From: an uncultured Eubacteriales bacterium
GTDB lineage: Bacteria > Bacillota > Clostridia > Oscillospirales > Oscillospiraceae
NCBI GenBank assembly: GCA_900319635.1
Contig: ONPF01000021.1
Span: forward strand, 1-34,267
Direction of reading: 5' to 3'
Length of the DNA stretch: 34,267 nt
Below, piece by piece: positions 4,004-11,031 of this stretch; position 1 is the first letter of the stretch; each line of letters begins with the position of its first letter. The notes under the pieces are model-generated. The model made no database searches and had not been told where the DNA came from. It saw nothing but the letters and a program-made list of their open reading frames with translations. The position numbers and the translations under genes are program-made.

Positions 4004-7000
4004 TTATGCCAGCTCCAAACTCAGGCTGCTGCCCTTCTCGCCGTGCTTTACCCGGATCTTTTGGGGGATGCTCTCGCTGAGCTTATCCACATGGGAGATG
4101 ATGCCCACCAGGCGCTCGCCCTCGGTGAGACCGTTCAGCACCTCCAGCGCCTTGTCCAGCACGTCGTCGCTGAGAGTGCCGAAGCCCTCGTCGATGAAGA
4201 GCGCGTCCATCCGCTTGCCCCCGGCGTGGTTCTGCACCACGTCCGAGAGTCCCAGCGCCAGGGACAGCGAGGTGAAGAAGGTCTCGCCGCCGGAGAGGGT
4301 GGCGGAGCCCCGCTGCAGGCCGGTGTTGTTGTCCAGCACCTCGATCTCCAGCCCGGCCTTGGCGTTGCGCCGGTCGGCGCCCAGCTTGTGGATCAGCTCG
4401 TAGCGGCCGCCGCTCATGCGCTCCATGCGCCGGTTGGCCGCCTCCAGGATCTCCCGGAACACCGCCCCCATGACGTAGCGGTCAAAGCTGAGCTTGCCGC
4501 CCTCGCTGTTCACGCCAACCGCCAGCGCCGCCAGATTCTCCAGCCGCCGCCAGGCGTCCTCCGTGCCAGCCAGGGCGTTTTTCGCCTCCGCCGCCCGCTC
4601 CAGAACCTGCCGGTGCTTCTGGAGAAGCCCCTCTTTTTGCAGGCATTCCTCGTTTGCCGATTGATACTGCTCGCCCAGGGTCCGGAGCTGCTCCTCCAGG
4701 GCGGCCAGATCGGTGTAGCTCTTCCCCTCCGTCTGCTCCCGCAGCTGCGCAAGGCCTTCCCGCGCGTGCCTCAGTTCCCCGTCAAAGTCGGACAAGAGCT
4801 GCTGCTCTCTCTTGAGCCAGAGATCCCCGTCGACGCTCCCGATGGGTGAGAGCGCCTCCTGCACCCGGGCGGGGTTTTCAAAGCCGCAGTCCGCCAGCAC
4901 CCGCTCCTGCTCTTGAAGGGCCTGCTCCTGGGCCAGCGTCAGCTTGTCCACCGAGCTCTCCTTCTCCCGCAGACCGCCCTCCAGCTGGGCGCAGCGCTGC
5001 TTTGCCCCGGCAAGGGCCTCCTCGTGGGCGCGAAGCCGGGCAGAGAGCGCATGCTGCCGCTCTTCCAGCCGCATCTTTTCCTCCACCGCAGAGGCCTCGT
5101 CCGAAAAGGAAAGCTGCTTGCGGATCTCCGCGATGGCGGCCTCCGCCTCTCGGGCTGCGAGAAGCTGCTTCTGCTCCTCCGCCCGGAGCACCTCGATCCG
5201 CTCCGAGAGGTTCTGCCGCGCGTTCTCCTTTTCCTGGAGCTGGCGGCGGCAGTCTTCCCTTTCCGTCTGCCGCTGCCGCGCGGCCGCAAGCGCCGCCGCA
5301 GCGGTTCTTTCATTTTCCGCAGCCTTTTCGATCGCAGCGGGCAGAAGCTTCCCGTCGCTGAGCTGCGCCCAGTCGCCGCAGGCGGGCAAAAGACGCTGTG
5401 CGCGGGCAAGAAGCGTCTGCTTTCTGGTCTCCACCCGGGCCGCAAGGGCCTGGGTTTTTGTCTGCTGTTCGCTGCGGGCCTGCTCCGCCCGGGCCATGGC
5501 CTCCTTCGCCCGGTTCACCGCGTCCTCTCCCGGGGTGTCCTCCCGCCGCAGCGCAAGCTGCCCGAGGTGGCTCCGGCACAGGCGGCTGCCGCAGACCGGA
5601 CAGTCCGCCGCGCCCTTTTCCTTCAGCTCGCCCCGCAGCGTATCGGCCAGCAGCCCCGCCTGCCCGGCGATGAAGCGCCGGTACAGCGCGGCATGGCGCT
5701 CCGCCGCCTCGGCCGCCTCCCCGGTGCGGGCGAGAAGCGCTTCCCGGGCCTGCTCCAGGGTCTTCTCCTGCCGCAGGATCGCCTCCAGCTCTTGCCGGAT
5801 CCCGCTCTCCCCTGTCAGCTCCTCCAGAATTTCGCCGGCCCGCTCCCTTTGATGGGCGCAGGCTTGCGCCTCCGCCTCGACATTTTCCAGCTCCTTGAGC
5901 CGTTCGCCCAGGGCTTGCAGCGCTTCCTCCAGCTTGGCCATTGCCGCGGCCTGTTGCGCGAGCGCATCCCCGGCGCTGTGGGCGGCGGCGTCGGCCGCGT
6001 CCCTGGCCGCCTGCCGCCGATTCAGCTCCCCATAGCGGGGCAGCTGCGCCGCCAGCAGCCCGATCCGGTTGGTGACGGTCTCCAGCTCCTGACAGGCGGA
6101 TGCGTCTGCGTCTACGGCGCGCTGCGCCTCGTCTAAGGTCAGGCGTCCATGCCGCAGCCGCTCCTGCCGGGTCTCGATCTCGGCCAGAAGGCTGTTCAGC
6201 GCGTCATAAGCCAGCTCGGCCTTCCGCAGAGCGGGCAGCGCCTTCCGATAGGCCGCGTCCGCCCGCTGCAGCCGCGCCCGGCGCAGATCCATCTCCTCCT
6301 GCCGCGCCTGGAGCGCCTGTAGGTGCTTCTGTTCCTTGTCGCGTCGGCTCAGCAGGTCGTTCACGCCCTCCGCCGCGCCCTTTTGGGTGTGCAGGGCGGT
6401 GAGCTGCCCGTGGAGGCTCTCCCGGGCGGCGCGGCTTTCCTCCAGCGCAGCCTGCTCCCGTTCCGTAAGCGCCCGCAGGTTCAAAAGCAGCTCCGGGTGC
6501 TCCGGCTGGAAGCCCTCCAGCTCCTCGCCTGTCAGCTCCTCGGGCGGAGTGAACTCCGTCTGCAGCAGCCGGCGCAGCTCCTCGCTGCGGCGCTCCCGGC
6601 GGCGGCGCAGCTCGTCCCGGGCGCCCTGCAGCAGGTTCTGGTACCAGACATAGAGGGAGTTGTCGAAGAGCTGCCCCAGGATCTCGTTTTTCTTGTCGCT
6701 GTCGGCCCGGAGGAACTCCTTGAACTCCCCCTGGGCCAGCATGATGATCTTGCGAAACTGCTCCGCGTTCAGCCCCAGCAGCTCCTCGCAGCGCTCCCGC
6801 ACCCGGTCGCTGCCCTCCAGGGGCGGCCGCTCCGGCTCCTCCAGCGTCGCCGAGACCGTGCCGGAGCCGTACTGATCCTCCGTGCCCCGCTTTTTGGCGA
6901 AGTGGATTTTGCGGGTGACGGTGTAGACCTTCTCCCCCTGGGAAAAGCAGAGCTTCACCACCGTATCGGTGGATTTGGGCACATGGTCGCAGTGCAGCAT

Positions 7001-7189
7001 GTCCCCCCGCCGGTCGTTGCCGCTGGCCACGCCGTAGAGAGCGAACATGATGGCGTCAAAAATGGTGGTCTTGCCGGCGCCGGTGTCCCCCGTCACCAGG
7101 TAGAGGCCCCGCTTGAGCTTGTCAAAGGGCAGCGCCGTTCGCTCCGCATAGGAGCCGAAAGCCGTCATTTCCAGCAAAATCGGTCTCAT
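4004..7189 (-). CDS. sbcC: SbcC, SMC-like ATPase subunit of the SbcCD nuclease
   Basis: SbcC partners SbcD (the bacterial Rad50-Mre11 complex) to cleave hairpins and protein-blocked DNA ends during repair. The 1061-residue protein has the expected order: Walker A GDTGAGKTT (34-42), a Q-loop region near AQGEFKEFL, a long Ala/Glu/Arg-rich coiled coil, and a zinc-hook CPVC (C530/C533) at its apex. A second coiled coil follows, then the ABC signature LSGGE (965-969), Walker B with catalytic Glu (about 996-1002, LFIDEGFG) and an H-loop ISHVD near 1032. Its ATG overlaps the sbcD stop (ATGA), indicating translational coupling. The 3' end abuts the extragenic repeat. All functional motifs look intact. 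Confidence 0.95.
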   Translation of the reverse strand: MRPILLEMTAFGSYAERTALPFDKLKRGLYLVTGDTGAGKTTIFDAIMFALYGVASGNDRRGDMLHCDHVPKSTDTVVKLCFSQGEKVYTVTRKIHFAKKRGTEDQYGSGTVSATLEEPERPPLEGSDRVRERCEELLGLNAEQFRKIIMLAQGEFKEFLRADSDKKNEILGQLFDNSLYVWYQNLLQGARDELRRRRERRSEELRRLLQTEFTPPEELTGEELEGFQPEHPELLLNLRALTEREQAALEESRAARESLHGQLTALHTQKGAAEGVNDLLSRRDKEQKHLQALQARQEEMDLRRARLQRADAAYRKALPALRKAELAYDALNSLLAEIETRQERLRHGRLTLDEAQRAVDADASACQELETVTNRIGLLAAQLPRYGELNRRQAARDAADAAAHSAGDALAQQAAAMAKLEEALQALGERLKELENVEAEAQACAHQRERAGEILEELTGESGIRQELEAILRQEKTLEQAREALLARTGEAAEAAERHAALYRRFIAGQAGLLADTLRGELKEKGAADCPVCGSRLCRSHLGQLALRREDTPGEDAVNRAKEAMARAEQARSEQQTKTQALAARVETRKQTLLARAQRLLPACGDWAQLSDGKLLPAAIEKAAENERTAAAALAAARQRQTEREDCRRQLQEKENARQNLSERIEVLRAEEQKQLLAAREAEAAIAEIRKQLSFSDEASAVEEKMRLEERQHALSARLRAHEEALAGAKQRCAQLEGGLREKESSVDKLTLAQEQALQEQERVLADCGFENPARVQEALSPIGSVDGDLWLKREQQLLSDFDGELRHAREGLAQLREQTEGKSYTDLAALEEQLRTLGEQYQSANEECLQKEGLLQKHRQVLERAAEAKNALAGTEDAWRRLENLAALAVGVNSEGGKLSFDRYVMGAVFREILEAANRRMERMSGGRYELIHKLGADRRNAKAGLEIEVLDNNTGLQRGSATLSGGETFFTSLSLALGLSDVVQNHAGGKRMDALFIDEGFGTLSDDVLDKALEVLNGLTEGERLVGIISHVDKLSESIPQKIRVKHGEKGSSLSLELA

Positions 7190-8430
7190 GGCCGCACCTC
7201 CTGTTCCGTCAGATAGTCCAGGAGCTTTTCGATCTCCTGCCCCGTCGGGACACCGTGGGGATCCGCGTTCTGCAGCAGCTCCCCGGCAAAGGCCAGCAGC
7301 GCCTGATCCTGCTCCGTGGGGGGCGTGCCGCCGCTGCGCTCGGCGTAGAAGTCGCAGAAGAGCTCCTCAACGCGCTTCTCCCGGACGGCCCCGGTGCTTG
7401 GCGCGGTGACTTCTCCCCGGAAGGGATCGTACTCCGAGCTTCTGTCCATCAGAATGCTGCCCCGGGAGCGGGCCAGCTCCTCAAAAAAGGCGCAGGTCTC
7501 CGGGCTCAGACGCCGGTCGGTGAGCACCAGGCGGAGATACTCCCCCGTCCGGGGATGCTGGAGCTCCGCCGCCCGCAGTTCCTCATAGGCGCCCCGCAGC
7601 TCCCGCATGGGGTGAAGGGGCGGAGTGTGCTGCAGCCGGATCTTCACCGGCTCTCCCTTCTCCCCCAGCTCCACCAGAAGCGGCCCCTTCTCCGCCTGGC
7701 GCAGCTCGTCAAAGTGGTAGCACAGGGGCGAGCCGGCGTAGCGCACCGTATCCCGGCCCACGGCGTAGGCCGCGTGGATGTGCCCCAGCGCCACATAGTC
7801 AAAGGCGTCGAAGGCGTGGAAATCCACCTGCCCCACGCCGCCCACCATGGACTCCGAACCGCCGCGGAGCGCCTCCACGCCGTTTGCCGTCACGTTTTGG
7901 TGGGCGATGAGCACGTTGCGCTCTCCGGGGTCGATGGGCTGCTCCGCCAGCAGGGCGCGCACCGCCGTGTCGTTGTCGCGGAGACTTTCATCCTCCAGGG
8001 TCTGGGCGATAAGGGCGGGGTAGACATAGGGCATCAGCCAGAAGCGGACGGGGCCGTGCTCATCCTCCAGGGTGACGCAGTCCAGCTTGCGGGAGGTGAA
8101 GAGCGGGCGGGAGATGAAAATATCCTTCTGCGCCAGCACCGGGCTCAAAAAGGAGAGCCGCTGGACAGAGTCGTGGTTGCCCGCCACCAGCATCACCGGG
8201 ATCCCCTGCGCCGCCAGCCCCTCCAGCATCCGGCTCAGCAGCTCCACCGCGTCCCCGGAGGGGGCGCTCCGGTCATAGACGTCTCCCGCGATGAGCACCG
8301 CGTCCGGCCGCAGCTCCTCCGCCAGCGCCAGAAGGCGATCCACCCAAAAGCCCTGGTCTCCGTTTTCCAGCAGCGACACGCCGTGGATGGATTTGCCGAA
8401 ATGCAGATCCGCAAGATGCAAAAAGCGCAC
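7186..8430 (-). CDS. sbcD: SbcD, Mre11-type nuclease subunit of SbcCD
   Basis: A Mn-dependent calcineurin-like phosphoesterase acting as double-strand exonuclease and hairpin endonuclease with SbcC. Motifs in order: HLADLHFG (5-12), AGDVYD (48-53), GNHDS (84-88), an IAHQ histidine and GHIHA. Length is 414 residues, normal for the family. The start is taken as GTG (8428-8430), because AGGGGG lies 7 nt upstream and the homologous N terminus (RFLHLADLHFG) begins directly there; the much longer open frame beyond it runs antisense through mgtE. It is first in the sbcDC operon, divergent from mgtE. Confidence 0.95.
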   Translation of the reverse strand: MRFLHLADLHFGKSIHGVSLLENGDQGFWVDRLLALAEELRPDAVLIAGDVYDRSAPSGDAVELLSRMLEGLAAQGIPVMLVAGNHDSVQRLSFLSPVLAQKDIFISRPLFTSRKLDCVTLEDEHGPVRFWLMPYVYPALIAQTLEDESLRDNDTAVRALLAEQPIDPGERNVLIAHQNVTANGVEALRGGSESMVGGVGQVDFHAFDAFDYVALGHIHAAYAVGRDTVRYAGSPLCYHFDELRQAEKGPLLVELGEKGEPVKIRLQHTPPLHPMRELRGAYEELRAAELQHPRTGEYLRLVLTDRRLSPETCAFFEELARSRGSILMDRSSEYDPFRGEVTAPSTGAVREKRVEELFCDFYAERSGGTPPTEQDQALLAFAGELLQNADPHGVPTGQEIEKLLDYLTEQEVRP

Positions 8431-8463
8431 GGCAATTCCCCCTTTTTTCTCTTGATTTGTTCT

Positions 8464-8493
8464 ATTGTACTCTCCCCACGCCGCTCCGGTCAA
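8464..8493 (-). promoter_or_regulatory. Sigma-A promoter for sbcDC
   Basis: Minus strand: TTGACC (8488-8493), 18-bp spacer, TACAAT (8464-8469). The -10 box lies about 33 bp ahead of the sbcD GTG. Confidence 0.7.
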
Positions 8494-8553
8494 GCAGAGC
8501 GCGAAAAAGAGGGCTGCGCCCGGAAAACTCCGCCTCCCGGAAGGGCTTTTTCC

Positions 8554-8582
8554 TTGACAGAAAACGGAAAATCCGGTATTCT
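8554..8582 (+). promoter_or_regulatory. Sigma-A promoter for mgtE
   Basis: Perfect TTGACA (8554-8559), 17-bp spacer, TATTCT (8577-8582). Transcription should begin near 8589, giving a leader of about 190 nt before mgtE. Confidence 0.8.
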
Positions 8583-8589
8583 GGACTTG

Positions 8590-8781
8590 CCATTCTATAC
8601 AAAAAAGGAGGAAGCGTCCATGGACGGTGGAAGTAGTACCGGCACATCCGCAGGCCGAAGTACAGCGGCGGAACCCCTGCCCTTGCGGGCGCTTCCGTCC
8701 CATAACTAAATAGCGGAACTTCGGTCTGCCGTACCGGCCTTCCCTACCCTGAACATCATCTATCAGAAGGAGGAAAGACCA
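8590..8781 (+). promoter_or_regulatory. Structured 5' leader of mgtE, candidate magnesium/metal-responsive RNA
   Basis: The leader can fold into one long irregular stem: GGAAG (8629-8633) with CTTCC (8739-8743), CCGG (8639-8642) with CCGG (8734-8737), and a 12-bp helix 8650-8661 with 8718-8729 (one G-U). Inside lies a hairpin, CGGAA (8669-8673) with TTCCG (8693-8697), capped by GCCC/GGGC (8679-8682/8687-8690). A short palindrome (8615-8626) is centred on the leader-ORF start codon. The mgtE ribosome site (about 8768-8774) follows the structure. No terminator-like U-run is present, so control would more likely act on translation or by another route. It does not show the sequence landmarks I know for the M-box; GGAAGTAG on the 5' side and GCCGTACC on the 3' side distantly recall the yybP-ykoY manganese riboswitch, but I cannot assign it. 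Confidence 0.55.
8620..8709 (+). CDS. Leader peptide ORF upstream of mgtE (29 codons)
   Basis: ATG 8620 is preceded by a full-strength AAGGAGG (8605-8611) at 8-nt spacing, better than most ribosome sites in the window. The peptide is Ser/Gly/Thr-rich first (MDGGSSTGTSAGRST) and Pro/Leu-rich afterwards, ending in SHN. Its codons run through the 5' arm of the main leader stem, and its TAA (8707-8709) stops just before the 3' arm (8718-8729). A translating ribosome would therefore open the stem, the geometry of attenuator or leader-peptide control as in mgtL-mgtA of Salmonella (analogy only). It may instead be a chance ORF in a structured RNA. Confidence 0.5.
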   Translation: MDGGSSTGTSAGRSTAAEPLPLRALPSHN

Positions 8782-10152
8782 ATGGCAGAACGCAACGCGA
8801 CGCTTGGCAGCACCATCGAGGTGCTGCTGGGGGAAAAGAAGTATTCCACGATCAAGGACGTTCTCGTGACCATGGAGCCGGCGGATGTGGCCGGCATCCT
8901 GGAGGAGATCGGGGACGCCCGCATTCCCAAGCTCTTCCGTCTGCTGCCCAAGGAGCAGGCGGCGGAGACCTTTGCCGAGTTGGAGCCGGAGCTGCAGGAG
9001 CTTCTGATCCGCGGCTTTTCCGATGCGGAGCTGCACGACATCATCGAGGAGCTCTATGTGGACGACGCGGTGGATCTGGTGGAGGAGATGCCGGCCAATG
9101 TGGTCAAGCGCATTCTCGCCCAGGCCAACCCCGACACCCGCAAGGAGATCAACGACCTGCTGCGCTATCCGGAGAACTCCGCCGGCTCCATCATGACCAC
9201 CGAGTATGTCTCCCTGCGCCCGGGCATGACCGTGCGGGACGCGATAGGCCGCATCCGCTCCACCGGCGTGGACAAGGAGACCATCTACACCTGCTATGTC
9301 ACCGAGAGCCGGAAGCTGCTGGGGCAGGTCTCGGTGAAGGACATGATCCTCTGCGCCGACGAGAGCACCCCCATCTCGCAAATCATGGACGAGAACGTGA
9401 TCTCCGTCAGCACCCTGACCGACCAGGAAGAGGTCGCCCAGATGCTCTCCAAGTACAACTTCCTGGCGCTGCCCGTCATCGACACCGATGGGCACATGGT
9501 GGGCATCGTCACCTTCGACGACGCCATGGACGTCATGCAGGAGGAGGTCACCGAGGATATTGAGAAGATGGCCGCCATCCTGCCCTCGGACAAGACCTAT
9601 CTGCGCTCCAACGCCTGGGATCTGTTCAAGCACCGGATCCCCTGGCTGGCGCTGCTTATGGTGTCCGCCACCTTCACGGGCATGATCATCACCGGCTTTG
9701 AGGACGCGCTGGCCGCCGTGGTGGTGCTCACCGCCTTCATCCCCATGCTGATGGACACCGGCGGCAACTCCGGCTCCCAGGCCTCGGTCTCCATCATCCG
9801 CGCCCTGTCCCTGGGCGAGCTGGAATTTCAAGACCTGCCCAGGGTGATTTGGAAGGAGATCCAGACGGCGGTGCTCTGCGGCTGCGCGCTGGCGGTGCTG
9901 TGCTTCGGCAAGATCATGCTGGTGGACGTCGTGATGATGGGGGCGGAGATCTCCCTGCTCACCGCGGCGGTGGTCTGCGTCACCATGGCGGTCACCGTGC
10001 TCATCGCCAAGGTCATCGGCTGCACGCTGCCCATGGTCGCCCAGAAGCTGGGGCTTGACCCGGCGGTGATGGCCAGCCCCTTCATCACCACCATTGTGGA
10101 CGCCCTGTCCCTGCTGGTGTACTTCGGCATCGCCAAGGCCCTGCTGTTTTAG
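8782..10152 (+). CDS. mgtE: Magnesium transporter MgtE
   Basis: A homodimeric Mg2+-gated channel of the cytoplasmic membrane. The 456-residue protein has an N-terminal superhelical MgtE_N domain (about 15-130), two CBS domains (about 135-255) that sense cytosolic Mg2+, a connecting helix, and a five-helix transmembrane domain (about 285-456). That domain contains the family motif MDTGGNSGSQ (324-333) and the pore aspartate in GLDPA (D426). Length matches the Thermus thermophilus protein. The start has AGGAGG 7-8 nt upstream. It is a single-gene unit with its own promoter, a structured leader with a small ORF, and a strong terminator, so it appears tightly and separately regulated. Confidence 0.96.
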   Translation: MAERNATLGSTIEVLLGEKKYSTIKDVLVTMEPADVAGILEEIGDARIPKLFRLLPKEQAAETFAELEPELQELLIRGFSDAELHDIIEELYVDDAVDLVEEMPANVVKRILAQANPDTRKEINDLLRYPENSAGSIMTTEYVSLRPGMTVRDAIGRIRSTGVDKETIYTCYVTESRKLLGQVSVKDMILCADESTPISQIMDENVISVSTLTDQEEVAQMLSKYNFLALPVIDTDGHMVGIVTFDDAMDVMQEEVTEDIEKMAAILPSDKTYLRSNAWDLFKHRIPWLALLMVSATFTGMIITGFEDALAAVVVLTAFIPMLMDTGGNSGSQASVSIIRALSLGELEFQDLPRVIWKEIQTAVLCGCALAVLCFGKIMLVDVVMMGAEISLLTAAVVCVTMAVTVLIAKVIGCTLPMVAQKLGLDPAVMASPFITTIVDALSLLVYFGIAKALLF

Positions 10153-10263: not shown

Positions 10264-11031
10264 TTACTTCCGGTTCTTCTGCCACAGGACCCACAGGCCC
10301 TTGAGCAGCAGGTCGTCGTCACAGGCGATCTCCCGCTTGCAGTAGGGGGTGATATAGGAGGCAAGGCCGCCGGTGGCCACCAGGTTGCAGGGATAGCCCA
10401 GCTCCGCCTCCATCCGCTCGATCATCCCGTCCAGGATGGCAGCGGTGCCGAAGACCGCGCCGGAGCGCATGCAGTCCACGGTGTTGGAGGAGATGGCCTT
10501 TTTCGGCGGAGTGATGGAGATCTCCGGCAGCAGGCTGGTGCCCGCGGCCAGGGCGCGGAAGCCCAGCTTCACGCCCGGCAGGATCGCGCCGCCCCGGAAG
10601 GCGCCGTCCTTGTCCACCACGGTGATGGTGGTGGCTGTACCCAGATCCATCACGATGGCCGGCGCGCCGTAGCAGCTAAGCGCCGCCACGCCCCCCACCA
10701 GCAGATCCCCCGCCAGGGTGCCGGGATCGTCGATGCGCAGGTTCAGCCCGGTCTTCATCCCGGGGCCTACCACCATGCAGTCCAGTCCCGTGACCTTCTT
10801 CACCGCATGGGTCAGCGGAACCGTCACCGGCGGCACCACGGAGGACAGGATCGCCCCCTCGAAACCCTTGGGGTCAAGGTTGGAGATGGACAGCAGCTGC
10901 ATGAGCTTGATGGCGTATTCCGCGTCCGTCTCCCCCACGCGGGTCTGGATCCGGACGATGTCCCGGATCTCTCCTTCTTCGATGCAGCCGAAGACGATAT
11001 TGGTATTGCCGACGTCGATGGCGAGGATCAT
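10264..11031 (-). CDS. coaX: Type III pantothenate kinase CoaX
   Basis: It phosphorylates pantothenate, the first committed step of coenzyme A synthesis; type III enzymes are insensitive to CoA feedback and need a monovalent cation. The 255-residue protein has the ASKHA phosphate-binding start DVGNTN (6-11), the central DLGTATT motif in the ATP site, GGAILPG, and the C-terminal ATGGLA motif. ATG at 11029-11031 follows the ECF gene by 18 nt with a GGGG-type ribosome site, so the two form an operon: uptake followed by phosphorylation of the same vitamin. Confidence 0.95.
   Translation of the reverse strand: MILAIDVGNTNIVFGCIEEGEIRDIVRIQTRVGETDAEYAIKLMQLLSISNLDPKGFEGAILSSVVPPVTVPLTHAVKKVTGLDCMVVGPGMKTGLNLRIDDPGTLAGDLLVGGVAALSCYGAPAIVMDLGTATTITVVDKDGAFRGGAILPGVKLGFRALAAGTSLLPEISITPPKKAISSNTVDCMRSGAVFGTAAILDGMIERMEAELGYPCNLVATGGLASYITPYCKREIACDDDLLLKGLWVLWQKNRK

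Follow-up and report, generated by a model that had tools for sequence, protein, structure and literature searches.

The mgtE gene of the window, which is the whole 34,267-nt stretch of DNA analysed here, is preceded by a leader that is, with near certainty, real, widespread and apparently undescribed. Comparison of related genomes demonstrated, at the level of sequence, a kept reading frame of a short upstream ORF (uORF), two kept helices, a kept CGA codon and an association with Mg2+ transporters of two unrelated families; how the mgtE start is affected is predicted from folding. On balance, we favour the interpretation that this is a uORF-gated translational leader for Mg2+ transporter genes, working like the enteric mgtL and corL leaders.

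Architecture of the leader in the window

The leader is about 190 nt long (Table 1). The promoter, the 29-codon ORF with its AAGGAGG site, the three-part stem and the apical hairpin, all described in an earlier note on this DNA, were recovered at the same positions, and the uORF does span the whole 5′ arm of the stem, as had been claimed; the order of its stop codon and the 3′ arm was also given correctly there, but the gap between them is 8 nt, not 9. As judged by eye, the stem consists of 5 bp in P1, 6 bp with one mismatch in P2 and 12 bp in P3. Folding of the window leader alone gave an MFE of −69.9 (z −1.81), with 9 of 200 shuffled sequences folding equally well, which is weak by itself. 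No intrinsic terminator was seen in the leader. The minus-strand ORFs flanking mgtE (4004-8435 and 10264-11031) presumably resemble SbcC/SbcD and type III pantothenate kinase.

Table 1 Features of the mgtE leader and its surroundings in the window
Feature	Position	Strand	Basis or remark
Sigma-A type promoter	8554-8582	+	TTGACA 8554-8559, 17-nt spacer, TATTCT 8577-8582; consensus scan, 10/12 matches
uORF Shine-Dalgarno sequence AAGGAGG	8605-8611	+	Sequence; kept in genus alignment
Helix PS, 5′ strand GGAAGCG	8610-8616	+	Duplex test
uORF, 29 codons + TAA, MDGGSSTGTSAGRSTAAEPLPLRALPSHN	8620-8709	+	N-terminus and reading frame conserved
Stem, 5′ arm (uORF codons 4-14)	8629-8661	+	Sequence, covariation
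Parts of the 5′ arm	P1 8629-8633, P2 8639-8645, P3 8650-8661	+	
CGA codon, Arg13	8656-8658	+	Rarest Arg codon in window genes; kept as codon
Apical hairpin P4	about 8669-8697	+	Sequence, folding
P4, 3′ strand CGCUUCC	8690-8696	+	Alternative partner: uORF Shine-Dalgarno region (PS)
Stem, 3′ arm (P3, P2, P1)	8718-8743	+	Sequence, covariation, folding
CUUCC at the end of the 3′ arm	8739-8743	+	Complementary to the mgtE Shine-Dalgarno sequence
mgtE Shine-Dalgarno sequence AAGGAGG	8767-8773	+	Sequence
mgtE, Mg2+ transporter, 456 aa	8782-10152	+	TIGR00400 461.4 bits (cut-off 232.75); PF03448, PF00571, PF01769

None of the 4227 families of Rfam 15 matched anywhere in the window at gathering score, and the only match to Rfam in the region 8480-8900 at E ≤ 10 was mir-140 (E 7.5), taken as chance. 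The M-box model (RF00380, gathering score 44 bits) gave 0 matches in the window and none in 8480-8900 at E ≤ 10, which agrees with the absence of M-box landmarks noticed earlier by reading the sequence, and yybP-ykoY (RF00080) had no match in the window. A distant or degenerate known riboswitch, formerly held to be the main alternative, found no match among these covariance models, and a known riboswitch was ruled out on this ground.

Distribution of the leader

A protein search of 61 genomes of the same genus provided 48 mgtE orthologues (72-100% identity) with upstream DNA, and the leader was present at all 48; fragment G010 (95 aa, contig end) was without upstream DNA, and 13 genomes contained only a paralogue or its fragments. 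In one of these leaders, L037, an insertion of about 240 nt, which begins with an inverted repeat, lies between the uORF stop and the 3′ arm (L037:1098-1500), with the uORF and the 3′ arm intact as judged by eye. The second mgtE of the genus (about 54% identity) had no such leader within 330 nt in L057 and L058, the two copies read.

The covariance model R1, comprising P1-P3 and built from 29 genus leaders, had matches at E ≤ 0.01 in 43 of the 200 genomes of the family sample, and all 30 loci inspected precede mgtE. The model R2, built from 75 leaders, matched 40/295 genomes of the order and 13/291 of the class, the window genome being counted in both. Among the 50 distinct matches at E ≤ 1e-4 in the family, order and class samples, a few of which had served in model building, 49 were located before mgtE and 1 before mgtA. 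Of 27 new loci in the order, 25 precede mgtE, 1 precedes mgtA (L145) and 1 looks like chance; in the class, mgtE follows 8 of the 13 loci, and the other 5 resemble chance matches. Inspection of 19 weak places gave 13 before mgtE (one without a patterned uORF), 1 before mgtA and 5 that look like chance; L240 is situated upstream of mgtE with no uORF by pattern. The matches without a transporter downstream (L150, L156, L159, L160, L162, L163, and further L231, L236, L245, L246, L247) were taken as chance, and five weak places of the family sample (G199:C212, G086, G129, G109:C13, G148) stand outside the tally.

The uORF-start pattern was present in 7/391 class genomes, and the reversed pattern in 0. 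A scan of titled genomes with the pattern provided 34 loci, all from Oscillospiraceae, Ruminococcaceae, Lachnospiraceae or Clostridia/Clostridiales, many of them from ruminant or other gut samples. Additionally, an order sample chosen by protein (117 genomes) contained 63 mgtE places, 5 of which were left out since upstream DNA was too short or not retrieved or the mgtE start was not found. The 58 judged places carried a canonical uORF (MDxG or VDAG start, 20-40 codons) in 22 cases, a looser candidate (e.g. METGSSKGKPRS) in 13 and an M-box in 3, and no recognised leader element was read in 20. A looser uORF class, MDASGVTVPRQ / MDAAGDTVPE, stands before mgtE in family f18 (L192, L193, L207) and could be a diverged relative or another leader.

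Ahead of mgtE orthologues, ORF and pairing alike are retained, both within the genus and in the family, order and class samples; neither outcome that the earlier note had named as refuting its idea, a lack of such conservation or a hit to a known riboswitch family, occurred. Note that the 118-leader set used below omits the copies L059, L062, L085 and L123, L145 (mgtA), L156, the uORF-less matches L150, L159, L160, L162 and L163, and the loci L228-L247.

Conservation and covariation of the stem P1-P3

Two alignments of genus leaders were used, one (A1) with 45 of the 48, L015, L023 and L037 being left out due to insertions, and the other (A2) with 29 of these 45, after removal of awkward rows by eye. 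In the 29 leaders, 91.2% of cells pair across the 25 stem pairs, and sliding of the partner by 1-3 columns lowers pairing to 30-49%. Eight of the 25 pairs were double-changed, a number reached by 17 of 500 shuffles, and the covariation score was reached by 0 of 500. In the 75 leaders, 18/25 pairs were double-changed, with 93 double-changed cells against 33 in shuffles, in an alignment fitted to the structure. At the same time, RNAalifold on an unfitted MAFFT alignment of 45 leaders recovered 13 pairs of P2 and P3, 7 of them double-changed; P1 was not recovered there.

In a duplex test on 117 leaders (the 118-leader set minus L037), codons 4-15 paired with the post-stop region better than with shuffles of that region in 49/49 leaders of the genus, 24/25 of the rest of the family and 39/43 of other families, and better than with partners swapped within the same group in 35/49, 20/25 and 35/43, respectively. 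In other families, the P3 sequence differs and pairing is retained, as seen by eye in L134, L139 and L243. Because the leader is conserved, it is more than chance, although the single-sequence fold is weak; chance pairing or an ordinary UTR was ruled out by conservation together with covariation.

Predicted access to the mgtE Shine-Dalgarno sequence

The consequence of ribosome position for the mgtE start was modelled by folding 115 leaders (L037 and two leaders without a recognised Shine-Dalgarno (SD) sequence being left out) with a ribosome footprint of 31 nt. Opening of the mgtE SD had a median cost of 7.2-7.6 kcal/mol when the 5′ arm was shuffled; with the real arm, it was 3.0 in the genus, 5.0 in the rest of the family and 5.2 kcal/mol in the others. 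A footprint with codon 13 in the P-site raised the cost by 4.75, 3.56 and 1.35 kcal/mol in the same three groups, thus more weakly in other families, against only +0.12, +0.40 and +0.00 with the shuffled arm. In single-codon steps over the 115 leaders, the effect peaked at codon 13 (3.19), formed a plateau over codons 7-15 and was gone by codon 19; its extent was uncorrelated with the position of the CGA codon (rho 0.007). It is likely, according to this modelling, that ribosome position governs access to the transporter start.

The output step is the weakest link of the proposal, because the predicted shift in the window itself is small (6.2 to 7.6 kcal/mol), the flanks of the anti-SD/SD pair do not covary, and the exact CUUCC..GGAGG pair, present in 76/117 leaders, is missing in 41/117. 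Covariation of these flanks had been convincing by eye and failed the permutation test (p 1.0, 0.12, 0.98). Moreover, the mean unpaired probability of the SD was low in all states (0.17-0.29), so the switch may be partial.

An unlikely alternative is an mgtL/corL-like Rho or transcription attenuation, in which mutually exclusive structures would expose or hide a Rho or pause site and the uORF would control transcript extension. The nearest known systems act in this way, according to the passages on their mechanism in PMC11552253 and PMC11282234, and Rho is conceivable here since the leader has no intrinsic terminator. Two results speak against it: on its 3′ side the stem ends in a sequence complementary to the mgtE SD, and the folding effect on SD opening nearly vanishes with the shuffled arm.

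Reading frame, peptide and CGA codon of the uORF

In the alignment of 45, each gap that falls between the uORF start and the last position of the 5′ arm spans three columns; the bulges of this arm vary, with codons gained or lost in threes. The distance from the uORF stop to mgtE is distributed over the three frames as 43/42/33 among the 118 leaders. Taken together, this means that the frame is kept along the arm and not beyond it, and the sequence pattern makes it very likely that a translated uORF is under selection.

The N-terminus follows the pattern MDxGSSxGT..GRS: codon 2 is Asp in 115/118 leaders, and Gly stands at codon 4 in 115, encoded with each of the four third bases, most leaders having been found by models or patterns that contain the motif. 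These constant residues favour, to a degree, the unlikely possibility that the nascent peptide is the sensor, either in the exit tunnel or by an early acidic residue that destabilises ribosomes at low Mg2+ as in MgtL, the RNA being the output only; early acidic residues do destabilise in MgtL, as described in the relevant part of PMC11282234. Against it, acidic residues close to the start mostly number one or two, an EPDP-like run is lacking, the conserved residues largely overlap the paired arm, and the fixed third base of the CGA codon is needless for a peptide. The window peptide, beginning MDGGSSTGTSAGRSTAAEP.., is likewise neither EPDP-like nor proline-rich early; it has a single early acidic residue, and proline appears first at codon 19.

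The first Arg at codons 10-17 is encoded by CGA in 111 of the 113 leaders with Arg and by another codon in 2, Arg being absent in 5/118. By comparison, 14 window genes contain 465 Arg codons, of which CGA makes up 2.6%; this set replaced an initial one that included ORFs antisense to recognised genes (2.8% of 573 Arg), and a fifteenth stretch with in-frame stops was excluded. In the mgtE genes at leader loci, the share is 3.9% of 1864 Arg codons. The codon lies mostly within P3, and pairing may explain much of its conservation; in the 15 leaders in which it is unpaired in the best duplex, it is still CGA in 15/15. As the models contain CGA, a control set of 18 canonical uORFs was assembled via mgtE and the start motif only: Arg is present at codons 9-17 in 16, the first is CGA in 16/16, and further Arg codons are CGA in 0/12. 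Twelve of these 18 uORFs are also strong model matches, and the never-matched L200, L203 and L215 likewise carry CGA. Among the looser candidates, 10 of the 13 were counted; 8 of these have an Arg, and CGA is the first Arg codon in 5 of the 8.

Additionally, the conserved part of the uORF (8620-8661) is rich in rare codons, AGT and TCA making up 2.7% and 1.6% of Ser codons in the window genes, and AGT comes after the first Arg in 77/113 leaders. Slow reading of CGA is described for the his leader of Salmonella in PMC4046918; four CGA codons left lacZ activity undiminished in B. subtilis, by the corresponding passage of PMC10454642. On a pause at CGA, these passages pull in opposite directions. 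A role of CGA as a timer is plausible.

The helix PS at the uORF start

A second helix, PS, pairs the uORF start region, from the SD to codon 3, with the 3′ half of the same uORF. This pairing was better than with dinucleotide shuffles of that 3′ half in 49/49 leaders of the genus, 25/25 of the rest of the family and 41/43 of other families, and better than with 3′ halves swapped within the same group in 36/49, 23/25 and 37/43. Two control pairings exceeded shuffles slightly (34/49, 16/25, 28/43 and 28/49, 16/25, 23/43) and showed no excess over swaps (21/49, 14/25, 23/43 and 23/49, 10/25, 19/43). The window has GGAAGCG/CGCUUCC, and much of the genus GGAAACG/CGUUUCC, which is a compensated change. 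PS and P1-P3 cross, and the full set of both can hardly coexist, as we infer from the almost complete lack of a linker between the PS 5′ strand and P1. Probably, PS shuts the uORF and frees the anti-SD.

Two crossing, coevolving helices, together with the exchange with the M-box aptamer (see below), would also suit a direct metal-binding riboswitch in which PS, P4 and P1-P3 formed a Mg2+-dependent fold, perhaps with a partial PS/P3 pseudoknot, and the ORF were passive. Such a riboswitch is improbable, since the bulges of the 5′ arm change by whole codons and a passive ORF would keep neither the frame nor the CGA.

Proposed mechanism

According to the interpretation of translational gating, the 3′ arm, ending in CUUCC, would cover the mgtE SD by default. 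The uORF codons 4-14 would be the anti-sequestering strand, whose pairing with the 3′ arm (P1-P3) would give access to the mgtE start. While a ribosome stands within roughly the first 17 codons, this strand would be occupied and mgtE closed; the ribosome may be held near codon 13 by a pause at the conserved CGA. Efficient uORF translation would then repress mgtE, if the sign is as we suppose, and poor translation, presumably at low Mg2+, would let P1-P3 form and mgtE be made. The helix PS would act as a second gate, setting the frequency of uORF initiation. An arrangement of opposite sign, in which a ribosome near the uORF end opens mgtE via coupling or re-initiation and uORF translation activates, could use the decrease of about 1.4 kcal/mol in SD opening cost with a footprint at codons 22-25 in other families, but has little chance in view of a stop whose distance to mgtE ranges from 18 to 165 nt (305 in a single leader) in near-uniform frame and of medians for codons 19-28 within 0.2 kcal/mol of the ribosome-free state in the genus and the rest of the family.

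The footprint folding supports the core idea of the earlier note, that ribosome position decides whether the stem forms; overlooked there were the complementarity between the 3′ arm and the mgtE SD, the second helix, the CGA codon, mgtA and the exchange with the M-box. We regard as possible, rather than probable, a fuller picture of a Clostridia-wide Mg2+ sensor, in which ribosome speed would be read by a single slow codon, a frame-locked CGA near codon 13 that would hold the ribosome on the anti-sequestering strand, and a coevolving helix at the uORF start would tune its entry, and which would have arisen apart from mgtL/corL, serve both MgtE and MgtA, and be swapped with, or stacked behind, the M-box.

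M-box, mgtA and the proposed link to Mg2+

An M-box precedes mgtE in L188, L190 and L221 and in further genomes of the order, 17/295 of which have an M-box; a scan of 19 mgtE loci that bear the leader gave no M-box. A tree of 70 MgtE proteins places L188, which has an M-box, among leader-bearing genes from the family to which it belongs (100/100); L190 and L275 cluster with the leader-bearing L228 and L230 (99/94 and 96/94). The leader label was no more clustered on this tree than when shuffled (15 changes against a mean of 15.4), so the leader has been gained, lost or missed often. We claim no genome-wide exclusion between the two elements: among 295 genomes, 27 have the leader at E ≤ 1e-4, 17 the M-box and 2 both (G293, G415), which is near independence.

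The leader also precedes mgtA, whose product, a P-type ATPase for Mg2+, belongs to a different protein family; this is so in L251 and L252, which are two genomes of one genus (L145 being the same place as L252), and in L243/L278 of the window's family. Two of these proteins (L251, L252) scored 1161.3 and 1160.8 with TIGR01524 (cut-off 610.75), and the partial L278 sequence scored 690.2. Among 13 mgtA genes listed, only L251 and L252 carry the canonical leader. At all three leader-bearing mgtA, an M-box is located further upstream, the L278 stack lying at 1770-2290 on the minus strand; L243 had been considered as an mgtA leader without an M-box until more upstream DNA was checked and the M-box was found.

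Downstream of the M-box, 9 of the 17 loci with this element in the order have a short ORF with an SD and an MD or ME start (L261-L274); the search pattern restricted position 2 to D, E, N or K. Several of these ORFs are Arg-rich, e.g. MDPSSRRRRADRR, and the Arg-rich ones resemble, as we assume, MgtL; the post-M-box ORFs may be a second family of leader ORFs. Mg2+ as the signal is plausible, judging from the genes and the M-box.

Comparison with known systems

Within open-access PMC (titles and starts of abstracts), no description of the present leader was found, and none of control of Mg2+ transporters by leader translation in Clostridia; the peptide word MDAGSS was absent from the open-access PMC texts searched. 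Leader-translation control of Mg2+ transporters has been described for enteric bacteria, and MgtE would join them if the proposal is true. The leader would then also be a natural case of one codon, beyond the peptide, seemingly kept for regulation, and the M-box and the uORF leader would be two RNA solutions that replace each other or stack on related genes, so RNA-based and ribosome-based Mg2+ sensing could be compared on orthologous genes.

The mgtE motif SRC-65-1, too, is a putative cis-regulatory RNA that lies ahead of mgtE and includes the SD in a stem, but its description in PMC11109978 reports it only in Thioalkalivibrio, as a riboswitch candidate, and the passages on it mention no uORF. 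In the pe20 leader of M. tuberculosis, as outlined in PMC12810186, an M-box, uORFs (among them a conserved uORF2) and an SD/anti-SD/anti-anti-SD arrangement are combined in one Mg2+-related leader. There, however, the M-box controls the uORF and the peptide is said to be mycobacteria-specific (same outline), whereas the present leader precedes mgtE without an M-box. With amino-acid attenuators, as portrayed for the Corynebacterium ilvB uORF in PMC11109978 and the his leader in PMC4046918, it shares, as predicted, the choice of helix by ribosome position; it differs in having a Mg2+ transporter as the target and neither a run of codons for a biosynthetic product nor a terminator hairpin. In close relatives, the M-box (ykoK leader, RF00380) is found at the corresponding place ahead of mgtE, but its sequence and structure are different, and a conserved ORF belongs to the present leader.

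The closest resemblance is to mgtL and corL, the leaders of enteric mgtA and corA: in each case, the 5′ region of a gene for a Mg2+ transporter contains a short uORF. RNA structures that exclude each other are predicted here as well, and so is a uORF translation inverse to transporter expression, as stated for mgtL and corL, where efficient uORF translation represses the transporter, in the pertinent passages of PMC11552253 and PMC11282234. The present leader differs in its occurrence in Clostridia, with a different uORF and mainly before mgtE, and in the predicted hiding of the Shine-Dalgarno sequence, compared to Rho-dependent termination in the enteric systems. It carries a conserved CGA codon in place of their proline/acidic EPDP sequence, and a helix over the uORF start.
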